In this document: positions 3,032-13,990 of the stretch, one piece after another
How the letters are laid out: the number at the start of each line of letters is the position of its first letter
How positions within the stretch are numbered: position 1 is the first letter of the stretch
Origin: Nitrospiraceae bacterium
Lineage (GTDB): Bacteria > Nitrospirota > Nitrospiria > Nitrospirales > Nitrospiraceae
Direction of reading: 5' to 3'
Assembly (NCBI GenBank): GCA_014534095.1
Contig: JACVSD010000040.1
Coordinates: 1 to 13,990 of the forward strand
DNA: 13,990 bases
Position numbers and translations under genes: made by a program
Notes under the pieces: model-generated
Database searches by the model: none
What the model saw: the letters and a program-made list of their open reading frames with translations, nothing else
What the model was told of the DNA's origin: nothing

Positions 3032-5290
3032 TCACAACGTTCCAAAGGTCCGTTCAAAAAACCGTTTCGTCTCAGTCATGTGCTGCTCAATGTCCGTCTG
3101 CAAGTGCCTCGCTCCCGCTTGCCAATCGTCGGTCGTGTAGCCCACGCGGCGGGCCAGGAAGATGAACTCGTCCGAGTCGGCTGGCGGCAGCACCAGATCC
3201 TTCGCGTTGCCGCGCACCATCCGTAATCCGTCGATCAGCATCCGAATGAATAAATAGGCTTTGCGCAACTGCTCGCCGTCCTGCCTCGCGATAAGTTGGA
3301 TATCCACCAATCCGGCGAGCGCTTGCATGGTATTCGGGGTGCGCAAGATCTGCTGCTGGTGGCCATGCATGACTTGCAGATATTGGACGGCATATTCGAT
3401 ATCGACGAGGCCGCCGGCGCCGTGTTTCACATTGATCGTGCCGGGCTCGACCAATTGTTTCAATTGTTGCCGCCGTAAATCCAAGGCGGTGCCGATGTCC
3501 CAGGGCTCGCCGCTATACACGTAGCGGTCGCGATGGGCTTCCACCTGCTTCCCGAGTGCCGCATCTCCCGCGACCGCCCGGAGTTTGATCAACGATTGGC
3601 GCTCGAACGGCGCCGCCGACCCGGTCGCGCTGTAGTAGCTGTGTATTTCTTCGAGCGGATTGGACAGGGAGCCCTTGCCGCCATGCGGGCGGAGCCGGAC
3701 GTCAAGGTGGAAGATCCCTTCCTGCTTGGTCTCGATCCACTGCAGCAGCTCCTGGACGAGCCGCTCAAAGTACTCGCTGTTTTCAATGGGCTGTTTCCCA
3801 GTGGTCCGGCCGGCCCCGCCGTAGACGAACAGAACTTCGATATCGGAGGCGTATCCCAATTCGCGTCCGCCGAATTTGCCCATCCCGAGGATGGCAAAAG
3901 GGCAGGGCTTGCGGTTTTCCAGGCGCGGTGCGCCGTAGAGCTTCTCCACCTTGGTTTGGCAGTCGCGCAGGCTGCGGCTCATGATGGCTTCGGCGAGGTC
4001 GGTCAAGGCCACGGAAAAATCGGCCACACTGGACGATTCCACCATGTGCTTCATGTCGATCCTGAACAGTTCCTGATCCTTGAATCGGTTCAAGGCCTCC
4101 TTGCGGGCCTGTTCCGTCTTGGCGCGGTCCACCACGCGGTCGAGTTCTTTCCTGAGTGCCGCCCGCGGCTTGATCAGCGGCGCGTCGCGATAGTCTTGTA
4201 ACAACGGCAAGAGATTGCCGTGCTGCCGGCGTAAAAAGTCTTCCCAGAGGAAGTCGCTGGTGCCGAGCAGGCGCGCAAGCAGAGGGAATGTCTTTTTGTC
4301 GCTGAGGAACGCGAGGGCCTGGGCCTGCTCTTTTCCCTTGGTGCCTTGCACCGTCATGTCGAGGAACTGATCGAAGGCCTCCAGGGCCTTGGCCGGGTCG
4401 GGCGCCCAGGTCAGGGCATGGGTGAATTGCTTGATCAGGACAGCGGTGAGCCGCAGATGCTGCTGATCCAGTGGATTCAGCAGCTTCTGTCCGTGGCGGT
4501 TCCGGACGTAAAACCGGTCGTGCAGTTTGCCTTTGTCAATTTCGAATTGCGCCTTCGTGATGTAGATATTTCGCATGGCCAACGCATTGGCGAAGGCGTA
4601 GAGAAAGGCCGGTGTGTCGTCGGACCGGATGTCCATGATGGTATCGGTCGGGGACTGGCTGTTGTCGAACGTAATCTGGACGGTATGCAGCAGCCCGCTG
4701 AATGAGCCGCGGCGTCTCCCGAGCTGCTCGACCAGGAGCCGGTTGACGGCCTGTCGCGCTTCGTCCACCTGCCCTGTATCGAGGAGCCGGATCATGCGGC
4801 TAAGCTCCGCATCAAGGCGCCGATGATCTTCCGGACCGAATGGTATACCGCGCCCCGGCTGCACCCTGAACAGGTCGACGATTTTTTTCCGCGTCAATCC
4901 TGGCCTGCCCTTCGGGCGAGCGCGCGAGTTTCCCCCGAGGGCCGTCCGAGCGGCCGGGGACGCACTTTCCACGAAAGTGTAGATCTGTCCTTCCTCGATG
5001 TTGAGTCCGAAGGCCGAGAGGAGGCCGCAGATGATCGCAAATTCCGAAAAATAGTCGTAAGCCACCAGCGTCAGTTCGAAATGCTGATCCGGCTGCTCGG
5101 TGATTGAGAGCTCACACGGATGATCCGGTGTCAGCCGCGCGGCCAAGCCGATATGGTGGCCAATCACGGCCGGGCTGAACCGGCGGAAATACTCCTGGTC
5201 CATCCGGCTGACAAAGTCCTGCACGATGTCGGGCGCGATGTCCTGACAGTGCGGGGAGAGGAGTGTCAATGTTTCCTCGGCGGTCATCAT
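3032..5290 (-). CDS. ACT-ACT-GlnE: glutamine synthetase adenylyltransferase-like protein with GlnD-type ACT domains
   Basis: Predicted cytoplasmic regulator, 752 aa, that would add AMP to glutamine synthetase. Two ACT-like modules at about 68-160 and 203-292 resemble the C-terminal ACT pair of GlnD (FELTLVAYDYFSEFAIICG; then IRSDDTPAFLYAFANALA and FYVRNRHGQKL). A GlnE helical segment follows (LLARLLGTSDFL, 338-348). The nucleotidyltransferase core is GMGKFGGRELGYASDIEVLF at 469-488, with D483, E485 and D530 (HLDVRLRP) as metal ligands. The C-terminal helical part contains GAGGLVDIEYAVQYLQV. ELGYASD and DIEYAVQYL fit the adenylyltransferase (C-terminal) half of classical GlnE better than the removase half. 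A second ATG at 5287 has better spacing from GGGAG than the first. The gene is divergent from the removase-like gene. GlnD has the opposite order (transferase first, ACT last). Which half it represents is inferred from motifs only. Confidence 0.82.
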   Translation of the reverse strand: MMTAEETLTLLSPHCQDIAPDIVQDFVSRMDQEYFRRFSPAVIGHHIGLAARLTPDHPCELSITEQPDQHFELTLVAYDYFSEFAIICGLLSAFGLNIEEGQIYTFVESASPAARTALGGNSRARPKGRPGLTRKKIVDLFRVQPGRGIPFGPEDHRRLDAELSRMIRLLDTGQVDEARQAVNRLLVEQLGRRRGSFSGLLHTVQITFDNSQSPTDTIMDIRSDDTPAFLYAFANALAMRNIYITKAQFEIDKGKLHDRFYVRNRHGQKLLNPLDQQHLRLTAVLIKQFTHALTWAPDPAKALEAFDQFLDMTVQGTKGKEQAQALAFLSDKKTFPLLARLLGTSDFLWEDFLRRQHGNLLPLLQDYRDAPLIKPRAALRKELDRVVDRAKTEQARKEALNRFKDQELFRIDMKHMVESSSVADFSVALTDLAEAIMSRSLRDCQTKVEKLYGAPRLENRKPCPFAILGMGKFGGRELGYASDIEVLFVYGGAGRTTGKQPIENSEYFERLVQELLQWIETKQEGIFHLDVRLRPHGGKGSLSNPLEEIHSYYSATGSAAPFERQSLIKLRAVAGDAALGKQVEAHRDRYVYSGEPWDIGTALDLRRQQLKQLVEPGTINVKHGAGGLVDIEYAVQYLQVMHGHQQQILRTPNTMQALAGLVDIQLIARQDGEQLRKAYLFIRMLIDGLRMVRGNAKDLVLPPADSDEFIFLARRVGYTTDDWQAGARHLQTDIEQHMTETKRFFERTFGTL

Positions 5291-5301
5291 TCTCCCGGCT
5301 T

Positions 5302-5343
5302 TCAGCTTTCAGCTCTCACCTTCAGTTCCCTGCTGAATGCTGA
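5302..5343. repeat. imperfect inverted repeat in the leader of the ACT-GlnE gene
   Basis: TCAGCTTTCAGC at 5302-5313 and GCTGAATGCTGA at 5332-5343 pair at 11 of 12 positions across an 18-base loop. On the minus strand the structure would sit a few bases upstream of the GGGAG ribosome site of the ACT-GlnE gene, so it could affect translation. The motif also looks like a dispersed intergenic repeat. Confidence 0.5.
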
Positions 5344-5378
5344 CAGCTGATTGCCGATCACTTCTTGCGATGGCCGCC

Positions 5379-5384
5379 AGTATA
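5379..5384 (-). promoter_or_regulatory. candidate -10 (TATACT) for the ACT-GlnE gene
   Basis: TATACT on the minus strand matches the sigma-70 -10 consensus at 5 of 6 bases. It would start a transcript with a leader of roughly 80 bases containing the inverted repeat. No good -35 is present at 16-18 bases, and that region coincides with the -10 of the opposite promoter, so the two could interfere. Confidence 0.3.
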
Positions 5385-5403
5385 CCGGAACCCTTTCCCT
5401 CAG

Positions 5404-5409
5404 TATAAT
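5404..5409 (+). promoter_or_regulatory. consensus -10 (TATAAT) for the removase-like glnE gene
   Basis: A perfect TATAAT ends 8 bases before the ATG at 5418, so transcription would begin at or next to the start codon and give a leaderless mRNA. The -35 position (about 5381-5386, TATACC) is poor. No ribosome site precedes this ATG, in agreement with leaderless translation. Confidence 0.45.
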
Positions 5410-5417
5410 GCCGCGGC

Positions 5418-7173: not shown

Positions 7174-8814
7174 CTACTTGGCGTGGAGGATGGCGTCGTG
7201 CAGATGACTCGCCGCGCGGTCCTTCCTCAGGAAGGTCGTCGCCCCCGCCGACATCATCGCCTGCTCGACCTGATTCGACTCCTGTATCGAGATGCCGATG
7301 ACGGCGGTCGACGGACGATCATGCTTGATTTGGCGGGTGGCGGCAATGCCGTCCAGCCGCGGCATGTTGATATCCATGACGACGACGTCGGGGTGGCGTG
7401 TGCGCGCCAGCTTGACCGCTTCAATCCCATCGCCGGCCTCGCCGACCACTTCCAGATCCTGGTACCCCTCCAGGATGCTGCGGAGACCCTCCCGGACCAT
7501 GGCATGGTCGTCCACGAGCAGCACGCGTAGCCGGGGCGCGGTGGTCGGATGGCCGTTGTTGGGGGCCTTCTCGGTAGCGGCCGGCGCCGCTGCCGGAACG
7601 ACAAGGGTGACTTTCGTCCCCTGATGGGGGAGTGAGCGGATGTCCATCCGGCCGTTCAGCATGACCATGCGTTCCCGGATGCCGAAGAGTCCGAAGCGCC
7701 GATGCGGCTCGCCGGTTTCCAGGTCCTGCGGCTCAAATCCCTGTCCCGCATCTTCCACGGACACCAGCAAGTGGCCCGTCGGTTCATAGGCCACCGTGAC
7801 GGACGCACGTTTCGTGGCAGCATGTTTCAGGACGTTGGAGAGCAGTTCGCGCACCGAGTGAAACAGTAAAATGGCTTGATTGCCATTGAGGATGGGCGGT
7901 TTCGACGGCAGACGTAATGCGACGGTGAGACCGTCCTTCTCCATGCGCGCGGCCAGCCATTGGAGCGCCGGTTGAAACCCCTGTTCGTGCAGCACCGGTG
8001 GGGTAAGGTCGCCGGCGAACGCTCCTGTAAATTTGACCGCTCGATCCATCACTTCGTCGATGTCCTGTAAGAGCGCGCTGATGCTTGCCGTGGTCGTTTG
8101 GCGAATCACATGGCCCAGTTTCATCCGGCCCAAGGCGAGAGGGCGGCTAAGATGATCCTCGAGTTCCCGGGCGATCTGACGACGCGCCTGCTCCTCGGCC
8201 ACTGTGTGTTGGGCGGCCAGTGAACGAAGTTTCGTTAACGCCGGGGCGAGTGGCTGTCCGGCTTGACGAACGGGCCGTTGGTCGGTAGCGGTAGAGTCGG
8301 TGCCGAGCGCGGAGGCGCAGCACTGGCTGATGATCCGGAGCAGGAGACGGGCGTCGTCGCCCCAGCCGCCTGAGCGGCGCGTCGCGAATGACATTGCACC
8401 GAGGAGCTGATCACGATGCACAAGCGGAAAGCAGGCATAGTCCGTGATCCCGAGTTCGGACAACGGCACGACGGCTGCCTCATCCGGTCGCTGAAAGTCG
8501 GACAGGATCGGCTGACGATCCCGAATGGCCTGGCGCGCGATGACGGCTCCGGGGCTAGGCTTGGTCAGCGAGGCCGCCGGCTCGCCGACAGGCTCCGTGA
8601 TCCCCCGAGAAGCAATCACAGCCGGCTCTTGCTTGTCATTGATCGCGTACCATTCGTAGCCGGCCAGCTCGATCAGTCGAGCCAGTTCCGGAAAGCGGGC
8701 GTCCAGCACGGTGCAGGGATCTTCCGAGGCCAGGAAGTCGGGCGTCGCCTCAGCGAGAAACGCGAGATGCGCGGCCATGCGGTGTGTGCTGTCTTCGGTG
8801 TGCACGCTGTTCAT
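7174..8814 (-). CDS. GAF / HisKA_3-type kinase / receiver hybrid sensor protein lacking the usual phospho-His
   Basis: Soluble two-component signalling protein, 546 aa, with no membrane segment. Residues about 30-170 form a GAF-like sensor domain. A NarL-type dimerisation helix (HisKA_3) spans 205-270. The HATPase is at 300-408, with the N-box ELLSNVLKHA (N327), DAGQGF at 355-360 and GLFGIRER at 375-382. A receiver domain fills 429-546, with D435, D436, phospho-acceptor D481, S509 and K531. There is no DNA-binding domain. The H-box reads RRQIARELEDHLSR, whereas the family has ELHD: the acceptor His is Glu219 (GAG), although the ATP-binding boxes are intact. It may act as a pseudokinase, a phosphatase, or a scaffold fed by another kinase; His221 is two residues off register. 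The start has no clear ribosome site. The signal is unknown. It is convergent with glnE. Confidence 0.85.
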   Translation of the reverse strand: MNSVHTEDSTHRMAAHLAFLAEATPDFLASEDPCTVLDARFPELARLIELAGYEWYAINDKQEPAVIASRGITEPVGEPAASLTKPSPGAVIARQAIRDRQPILSDFQRPDEAAVVPLSELGITDYACFPLVHRDQLLGAMSFATRRSGGWGDDARLLLRIISQCCASALGTDSTATDQRPVRQAGQPLAPALTKLRSLAAQHTVAEEQARRQIARELEDHLSRPLALGRMKLGHVIRQTTTASISALLQDIDEVMDRAVKFTGAFAGDLTPPVLHEQGFQPALQWLAARMEKDGLTVALRLPSKPPILNGNQAILLFHSVRELLSNVLKHAATKRASVTVAYEPTGHLLVSVEDAGQGFEPQDLETGEPHRRFGLFGIRERMVMLNGRMDIRSLPHQGTKVTLVVPAAAPAATEKAPNNGHPTTAPRLRVLLVDDHAMVREGLRSILEGYQDLEVVGEAGDGIEAVKLARTRHPDVVVMDINMPRLDGIAATRQIKHDRPSTAVIGISIQESNQVEQAMMSAGATTFLRKDRAASHLHDAILHAK

Positions 8815-8912: not shown

Positions 8913-9272
8913 CTACTCGTCTTCATAGCGGAGATCATGATCGCTGGCCAGCACGAGATACGCGTCCCCCCACTGATGATCGTTGGCCAGGCTCCATGGC
9001 TCGTCGGGATGGACAGGTTTTAGCCGCAGGCCGTGGATGCCGCCGTAGACGAGCCGCGCCAGCCCGGAGCCCGAGTCTTCCACGAGCCGGGCATAGGCGG
9101 GACAGGCGGGCGCCTTCTCGTCGTCGCTCCACCCGGTGATGCGGTACCATTCTCCGGCCGGGTTGCGGTCAAAGAGCCGCACTTGAAAAACGGGGCGGGC
9201 GGGCCCGGCTTCTTTGAACCGTGCGAACACGCTCATGTCGCAATTCTGGTTTGGCTCAACCTCGACAATCAC
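8913..9272 (-). CDS. small protein of unknown function (119 aa)
   Basis: I do not recognise this family. The GTG start is supported by GAGGTGA 6 bases upstream, and a TACAAT -10 lies just beyond. The protein is soluble and acidic at its end (DHDLRYEDE), has no signal peptide or membrane helix, and is rich in aromatic residues (FQVRLFDRNPAGEWYRITGW; DHQWGDAYLVLASD), suggesting a compact beta-rich fold. It lies between the groEL terminator and the hybrid kinase on the same strand, 98 bases from the kinase start, so it could be co-transcribed with the kinase. An ATG at codon 13 is possible but has no ribosome site. Confidence 0.65.
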   Translation of the reverse strand: MIVEVEPNQNCDMSVFARFKEAGPARPVFQVRLFDRNPAGEWYRITGWSDDEKAPACPAYARLVEDSGSGLARLVYGGIHGLRLKPVHPDEPWSLANDHQWGDAYLVLASDHDLRYEDE

Positions 9273-9293
9273 GCCGGGTCACCTCGCGACACT

Positions 9294-9299
9294 ATTGTA
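9294..9299 (-). promoter_or_regulatory. candidate -10 (TACAAT) for the small unknown gene
   Basis: TACAAT on the minus strand matches the -10 consensus at 5 of 6 bases and lies about 20 bases upstream of the GTG start, past the groEL terminator. The -35 is weak and would overlap the T-rich tail of that terminator. Confidence 0.35.
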
Positions 9300-9321
9300 C
9301 AGGCACGAAGGCCGCAAAACA

Positions 9322-9355
9322 CAAAGGGCCCGGCGGTGTCCCGCCGGGCCCTTTG
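9322..9355 (-). terminator. intrinsic terminator of the groESL operon
   Basis: Perfect 15-base stem CAAAGGGCCCGGCGG / CCGCCGGGCCCTTTG with a 4-base loop, 28 bases past the groEL stop. On the minus strand it is followed by TGTTTTG, a short T-rich tail. It is the strongest hairpin I found in the window. Confidence 0.9.
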
Positions 9356-9383
9356 CAGAAAGCTGATCGCTTTCGAGCCTGTC

Positions 9384-11066
<1,683 letters not shown>

Positions 11067-12886: not shown

Positions 12887-13990
12887 ATGACCCTATTCAC
12901 CGCGCTCAAGAGCGGACATTGGCCCTCGCTGATCGGAGGGTGGCTCCATTTGACGGTCAGCTTCATGGTGTGGCTGTTGATGGGAGCCTTGAGTATTGCC
13001 CTGGCCGCCGACCTCAGGCTGACGGACCAACAGATGGCCTGGCTCGTCTCAACGCCGCTGTTGGGCGGGGCGGTGTTGAGGGTCATCGCCGGGTGGAGCG
13101 CCGACTGGATCGGGGCCAGACCCACGGCGGTCGGTATTTTGCTGACCGAATTGCTCGTCCTGCTCTGGGGATGGCTGGGAGTGAGCGACTATCCCGAAGC
13201 TCTGGCCTTTGCGCTGTTGCTCGGAGTGGCCGGGGCCAGTTTTGCGGTGGCATTACCGATTGCCGGCCGCGCATACCCGCGCTCCGCGCAAGGGTTCGTG
13301 TTAGGGCTGGCGGCGTCCGGGAACGTCGGAACCGTACTTGTGCTCTTTTTCGCGCCGCGCTGGGCCGCATGGCTCAATTGGCATGACGTCTGCGGCCTCA
13401 TGGCCGCCCTGGTTCTCGTCACGCTGGTGGCATTCTCGGGCCTGGTCCCCCGCGAGAAACGAGAGCCTCATGTCGTGCAGTGGTGGCACAATGTCGCGAC
13501 GCTCGTCCGCCGTCCCGCTGCCTACTGGCTCTGCTTTCTCTATGCGGTGACGTTCGGGGGATTCGTCGGACTCTGCAGCCTCCTGCCCTTGCTCCTCCAT
13601 CAGACTTATGCGGTCGATGCCGTCCTCGCGGGCTCGCTAGCGGCGGTCTGCGGACTCATCGGCAGCCTGATTCGCCCGTTCGGGGGATATGTCGCCGATC
13701 GGCAGGGCGGCCTGCGGGCCCTCCATTATGTATTGCCTGTCATGGCGGGAGCGGTGGTGGCGGTCACCAGTCCCTCGTTCGCGCTTGCGGTAACGATGAT
13801 GATGGTGGCGGCCGGCGCCATGGGCTTCGGCAACGGTGTCGTTTTCCAACTCGTCGCCGAGTGGTTCCCGAAAGATATTGGTCTTGTCTCGGGCGTAGTG
13901 GGAGCGGCCGGAGGATTGGGTGGATTTCTTTTCCCTCTGCTGGTCGGAACGCTGAAGGGCGTGACCGGCGATTTCGCGCTCGGCCTCTGG
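12887..13990 (+). CDS. narK: NarK-type nitrate/nitrite transporter (MFS), 3' end beyond window
   Basis: Inner-membrane major-facilitator carrier for nitrate and/or nitrite; 368 codons are seen, open to the right edge. The N-terminus GHWPSLIGGWLHLTVSFMVW is typical of the family. Two substrate arginines appear in their usual contexts: R65 (GGAVLRVIAGWSADW, TM2) and R263 (SLIRPFGGYVADR, TM8). Nitrate signature 1 is at 113-149 (GVAGASFAVALP to GNVGT) and signature 2 at 313-350 (GFGNGVVFQLVAEWFP, then GAAGGLGGFLFP). About ten helices are visible. No ribosome site precedes the ATG; the upstream bases are the GACAAG repeat. It is divergent from rpoH. Whether it imports, exports or exchanges cannot be read from the sequence. 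Confidence 0.9.
   Translation, partial: MTLFTALKSGHWPSLIGGWLHLTVSFMVWLLMGALSIALAADLRLTDQQMAWLVSTPLLGGAVLRVIAGWSADWIGARPTAVGILLTELLVLLWGWLGVSDYPEALAFALLLGVAGASFAVALPIAGRAYPRSAQGFVLGLAASGNVGTVLVLFFAPRWAAWLNWHDVCGLMAALVLVTLVAFSGLVPREKREPHVVQWWHNVATLVRRPAAYWLCFLYAVTFGGFVGLCSLLPLLLHQTYAVDAVLAGSLAAVCGLIGSLIRPFGGYVADRQGGLRALHYVLPVMAGAVVAVTSPSFALAVTMMMVAAGAMGFGNGVVFQLVAEWFPKDIGLVSGVVGAAGGLGGFLFPLLVGTLKGVTGDFALGLW

Follow-up and report, generated by a model that had tools for sequence, protein, structure and literature searches.

The window, a stretch of 13,990 nucleotides from a Nitrospiraceae genome, holds two divergent genes that each encode one GlnE half-domain (Table 1); we refer to the first as ACT-AT and to its neighbour as the AR half. 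By profiles and predicted models, residues 1-300 of ACT-AT are a GlnD-type piece composed of helices, ACT1 and ACT2. This bears out the original prediction of a GlnD-type ACT pair ahead of a GlnE transferase, and the residues D483, E485 and D530, which had been said to be in place, are indeed so and do not vary among 98 rows. An ACT fold was seen for both modules in the predicted models, which left the claim standing at the point where a structure prediction could have contradicted it. The pre-ACT helices and the ACT pair align with the GlnD C-terminus. Residues 1-58 were aligned with the C-termini of six Nitrospira GlnD proteins (two of the six alignments start within that stretch), and the match to TIGR01693 begins at residue 18 and spans only model positions 615-842. 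In contrast to GlnD, the ACT pair is N-terminal, loop residues are changed, the GlnD transferase was not found (TIGR01693 covers the ACT part only), and no HD domain appeared among the Pfam matches to E 1. Residues 2-310 had no match below E 1 among PDB sequences.

Table 1. Coordinates of the two GlnE half genes and of the parts of ACT-AT in the window.
Feature	Position	Strand	Evidence
ACT-AT gene, GlnD-type ACT pair fused to one GlnE half, 752 aa	3032..5290	-	profiles, predicted models
Pre-ACT helical piece, residues 1-58, homologous to the GlnD stretch before ACT1	5117..5290	-	GlnD alignment, TIGR01693
Predicted ACT1, about residues 67-171, with low-confidence insertion	4778..5092	-	predicted models
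Predicted ACT2, about residues 203-295	4406..4684	-	PF24931 at 205-280, just under cut-off; predicted models
GlnE half-domain, residues 296-752	3035..4405	-	tree: with adenylylating (AT) halves
Catalytic pair D483-I-E485	3836..3844	-	D483 and E485 invariant in 98/98
Third carboxylate D530	3701..3703	-	invariant in 98/98
Intergenic stretch between both divergent genes	5291..5417	.	without firm promoter motif
Probable AR half, single GlnE half-domain without ACT, 578 aa	5418..7154	+	PF03710 at 121-384, E 5.7e-60; tree; motifs ELNYSSDVD, GGIREIEF

In E. coli GlnE the AT and AR halves are joined by a regulatory domain, whereas here both halves are neighbouring genes. PF03710 and PF08335 are present in each of them above the Pfam cut-offs and the catalytic carboxylates are kept, as in GlnE; what differs is the distribution over two divergent genes and the ACT pair, which on the putative AT half replaces the AR and central regulatory parts. 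The initial designation as a GlnE adenylyltransferase therefore held in part: a GlnE transferase is present, but the chain is one half only (its top NCBIfam equivalog match reaches 209 bits, where 625 are required), and the opposing half is the divergent neighbour. The arrangement was followed through 81 loci, namely the window and L001-L080, the latter fetched via ACT patterns and thus a biased sample. The full ACT1-ACT2-AT chain was found in 80 of the 81 loci and both GlnE halves in 79, divergent in every one of these 79, and three AR motifs were kept in 78/80 AR-half frames. One of the 81 loci (L033) starts at a contig edge. Locus L079 (Nitrospira sp. isolate RSF11) carries a copy without ACT1, with no AR half found within its 21.9 kb, and represents either a rearrangement or an assembly fault. 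Among the 17 loci entering the half-domain tree described below, the partner AR half was seen in 16; for L143 no partner half was found within the stretch fetched. In other Nitrospirota GlnE is fused; the frames read there included ones of 1039, 1076 and 1230 aa. Between the ACT-AT and AR genes a strict sigma-54 pattern was found in none of 79 loci, and a looser pattern gave a single match, which lies on the minus strand of the window.

The C half of E. coli GlnE adenylylates and the N half deadenylylates (PMC12409994). In a tree of half-domains (54 rows), one side of a branch (96/94) comprised all 17 ACT-AT rows, 7 of 8 canonical C-terminal halves and L155, the C-position half of a pair in two frames. 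On the other side were the 16 solo neighbours, all 8 canonical N-terminal halves and four unlabelled rows; the actinobacterial C half L157 fell on this AR side, on a long branch. Forcing the ACT-AT and solo rows into one clade was rejected (p-AU 0.008). Where the patterns were readable, the ACT-AT motifs ELGYASD, FERQAL and GGxxD[IV]EY resembled C halves and the neighbour motifs ELNYSSD and GGIREIEF resembled N halves. Plain similarity did not favour AT for ACT-AT and was neutral or leaned to AR: the best PDB sequence match was the AR half 1v4a (118 bits) ahead of the AT half 3k7d (113 bits), structure comparison likewise leaned to the AR half over the AT half, and the NCBIfam matches fell on the N half of the models. 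Together, the tree placement and the roles of the E. coli halves indicate an AT role for ACT-AT and an AR role for its neighbour as the most likely assignment, the presumed AT activity being read from sequence comparison.

A survey across genomes, suggested with the original prediction, found the architecture conserved. While 232 of 295 Nitrospirota genomes matched the profile at E 0.001, scores above 500 bits were reached in 101 of the 295 among the matches listed, the next rows having at most 230 bits; a few of these 101 carriers are pieces. At least 120 protein relatives were obtained, all with PF03710 and PF08335 and most also with PF24931 among the matches listed. Scanning of contigs confirmed 135 relatives, and the best 80 of the 135 were titled Nitrospira, Nitrospiraceae, Nitrospirae or Nitrospirota except for one Nitrosospira, the scan patterns being close to Nitrospira, so that distant forms elsewhere could escape. 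The protein names of two relatives read Bryobacteraceae and Terriglobales, and a plasmid collection held no record with 80 % cover of ACT-AT. The ACT-AT trait is thus conserved and spread through a large part of the Nitrospirota. A record titled uncultured Nitrosospira sp. isolate CMX (L034), whose ACT-AT is 74 % identical, is probably a mislabelled Nitrospira bin. The relatives P0179 and P0201 are named '[protein-PII] uridylyltransferase family protein' by NCBI. GlnD models matched only the ACT part in the ACT-AT family members scanned, and our results suggest that the public gene names (bifunctional GlnE, PII uridylyltransferase family) are misleading. No description of such an ACT-AT protein was found in the literature searched, which left most subscription journals uncovered.

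The nearest sequence relatives of the ACT pair are GlnD ACT domains, which are considered glutamine sensors (PMC3173338), and because of this kinship glutamine is our best guess for the ligand. Sensing of another amino acid or metabolite, by which GS would be coupled to a different pool, appears improbable to us in view of the same kinship, even though ACT proteins whose structures contain isoleucine, lysine or arginine are among the structure neighbours of the predicted ACT pair and the loops of ACT-AT differ from those of GlnD. The glycine of the beta1-alpha1 ligand loop, which is described as matching the serine site of PGDH in position (PMC3173338), is replaced in ACT1 of all 98 rows (S in 87, A in 9, Y in 2) and in ACT2 of 88 of the 98 (A in 82, F in 3, V in 3; G in the other 10). 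An Asp in each loop, D79 and D225, is invariant in 98/98. This glycine is also missing in ACT1 of GlnD from E. coli, Sinorhizobium, L178 and L185 and in ACT2 of Qipengyuania GlnD, so that its replacement neither proves nor excludes glutamine.

The replaced glycine would also suit a pair that binds no amino acid and serves for dimer formation or for docking to PII, the AR half or GS, with glutamine and PII acting elsewhere on the chain as in E. coli. The E. coli AT/AR enzyme, which according to PMC5448240 answers to glutamine through a site of its own, and the very long stem (1.8) on which the ACT-AT pair sits in the ACT-pair tree point in the same direction. Such a role is nevertheless unlikely in our estimation, given the two invariant aspartates and the GlnD ACT domains that lack the glycine as well. 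Derivation of the pair from Nitrospirota GlnD was considered but found no support, as the tree sets ACT-AT apart from GlnD on that stem; L097 and L098 had been dropped from this tree (no GlnD frame met the filter) and L197 was not entered. ACT1 is two residues shorter only in comparison with Nitrospira-type GlnD, and many other GlnD share the short form.

GlnD, PII and GlnA were all present in the six Nitrospira genomes first checked, each with the order glnB-glnD-glnA by coordinates; in G004, glnB-glnD-glnA-ACT-AT-AR stand in one row of about 9 kb. GlnA of all six contains the GS site KDLYDL, the tyrosine of which we take to be the E. coli Tyr397 site. GlnD was then evaluated in 80 of the 101 carriers with matches cut at E 1e-10, a limit that leaves out weak ones. 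It lay above the cut-off in 52 of the 80, and G075 had a partial GlnD (503 bits). In 27 of the 80 GlnD was not found, only the ACT part of ACT-AT being matched. With GlnD of N. moscoviensis as the query, these 27 genomes returned only ACT2 of ACT-AT (25 genomes) or nothing (2 genomes). Additional GlnD-like matches of ~25-27 bits in 726-727-aa frames of four GlnD-less genomes (G033, G042, G049 and G056) are probably RelA/SpoT ACT domains. In three GlnD-less genomes glnB/glnA lie on contigs of 4.13, 4.54 and 4.69 Mb, and the absence of GlnD is therefore not explained by assembly gaps.

No genome searched for PII lacked it, the 27 without GlnD included, and among the latter glnB stands directly ahead of glnA in the 24 that were readable (spacing 57-78 nt in 23 genomes, 242 nt in G220). 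The site KDLYDL is intact in 26 of the 27 GlnD-less loci and occurs also in G197, within a broken GlnA frame. In that GlnD-less bin (L232, 2129-3783) GlnA is spread over two overlapping frames, reflecting sequencing error or damage. The GlnD-less genome G278 (L230) has a full AR frame beside ACT-AT. The PII loop RGQEY, including the modifiable tyrosine, is kept in 27/27 GlnD-less genomes, so that PII may still play a part there. Together with the uridylyltransferase name of two relatives, this loop might be taken to mean that ACT-AT modifies PII at Tyr51 in place of GlnD, instead of or besides GS. We judge this highly improbable: the catalytic half belongs to GlnE and not to GlnD, TIGR01693 lies on the ACT part only and an HD domain is absent among the Pfam matches, and GlnD is also present in the 52 carriers mentioned. 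Moreover, cyanobacterial PII retains Tyr51 yet is not uridylylated (PMC6243067).

In the ACT-AT tree, which was built by a quick method and came with long-branch warnings, GlnD presence requires two changes, G075 being left out of the count. Of the GlnD-less carriers 26 form a single clade, and the remaining one, G220, stands by itself on a branch that was marked as long. Two independent losses of GlnD were not upheld, since this branch is long and the placement of G220 unsure. G075 is nested deep in the GlnD-less clade, and a mixed bin might account for its partial GlnD. The eight other rows in the smallest starred set holding the window all have GlnD. An AMO-family gene was found in 21 of the 27 GlnD-less genomes (comammox-type), in 4 of the 52 with GlnD, and in G075; to our knowledge PF02461 alone does not separate ammonia from methane oxygenases. 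AMO as the exact partner of GlnD absence was rejected, as it needs 9 changes on the tree, perhaps due to gaps in metagenome-assembled genomes. Comammox clade A is described as having Rh-type transporters, and clade B and canonical Nitrospira as having Amt-type transporters (PMC6311188). The legend of Fig. 3 in the same review lists GlnA, GlnB, GlnD and NadE, this being the one place in its text where GlnD is named, and that figure may already show that GlnD is absent.

In the GlnD-less comammox-type clade the ACT-AT pair is the sole GlnD-type ACT pair found. D79, D225, D483, E485 and D530 are invariant in the 27 GlnD-less rows as well as in 54/54 others (the window and 53 genomes). The ratio of mean amino-acid difference, ACT part to AT part, was 1.38 in the GlnD-less clade, compared with 1.33 and 1.66 in two GlnD-bearing groups, and the median dN/dS within the GlnD-less clade was 0.081 for the ACT part and 0.053 for the AT part (46 usable pairs of a sample). 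These data indicate that the ACT part is under purifying selection where GlnD is absent, with no sign of relaxation. Selection there argues against a mere docking module, although docking would explain it too.

The GS/PII/GlnD/GlnE cascade, the bicyclic switch of the textbooks, is split and rewired in these nitrite-oxidising and complete-ammonia-oxidising bacteria. On balance we think it probable that ACT-AT is the AT subunit of a split GlnE whose GlnD-type module senses an amino acid, most likely glutamine, and thereby switches AMP transfer on. At high glutamine, the ligand would bind the ACT pair, which stands where fused GlnE would have its AR and central regulatory parts, and transfer of AMP to the GlnA tyrosine would be turned on. 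At low glutamine AT would be idle and the separate AR subunit would strip AMP from GlnA, while unmodified PII might still act on either subunit. In most carriers the ACT-AT sensor would work beside GlnD and PII.

The proposal that this chain dispenses with a PII relay was too strong in general, considering that PII is never missing from the genomes searched and that GlnD accompanied it in those first checked. For the GlnD-less clade, given the 27 of 80 tested carriers in which GlnD is absent, the lack of a PII-UMP relay is credible, even though PII itself is kept throughout. As GlnD is absent there, AR in these genomes cannot depend on PII-UMP made by GlnD. It is conceivable, and we propose it tentatively, that in comammox-type Nitrospira the cascade has collapsed to one tier, GlnD having been lost, the ACT pair reading glutamine and AR working without PII-UMP. 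If so, the sensor would have shifted from the PII modifier to the GS modifier. The GlnD-less clade provides a natural experiment for asking if the enzyme that modifies GS can take over glutamine sensing. The contrast originally drawn with GlnE, which was said to receive the glutamine signal through PII, was too sharp, as E. coli AT/AR is also under allosteric glutamine control at a third site, besides PII (PMC5448240). Owing to that site, direct control of GlnE by glutamine has precedent in itself; what would be new is an ACT sensor dedicated to it. ACT-AT is thus a candidate single-protein glutamine-to-GS switch that can be tested directly, and with AT apart from AR each may be assayed alone.

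Among other proteins, the plant ACR family (PF24931; ACR11) has similar GlnD-like ACT repeats, but its members lack a transferase; in Arabidopsis, ACR11 and a gene for glutamine synthetase show coexpression (PMC3173338). The large glutamate dehydrogenase L-GDH180 of M. smegmatis carries another catalytic domain and is only a remote parallel.

Elsewhere in the window, a chain combining GAF, a histidine-kinase-type ATPase and a receiver domain (7174-8814, minus strand) is encoded convergently to the AR half. A frame of 545 aa at 9384-11021 (minus strand) was read by eye as GroEL, and the 658-aa open frame antisense to it (9033-11009, plus strand) probably arose by chance in coding DNA. At one edge of the window two overlapping RND-type transporter frames lie on the minus strand (2-271 and 180-1679); the 499-aa frame terminates at a stop and matches no more than 4-494 of the 1021 positions of its family model, roughly the first half. 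A major-facilitator transporter (12887-13990, plus strand) is cut by the window end.
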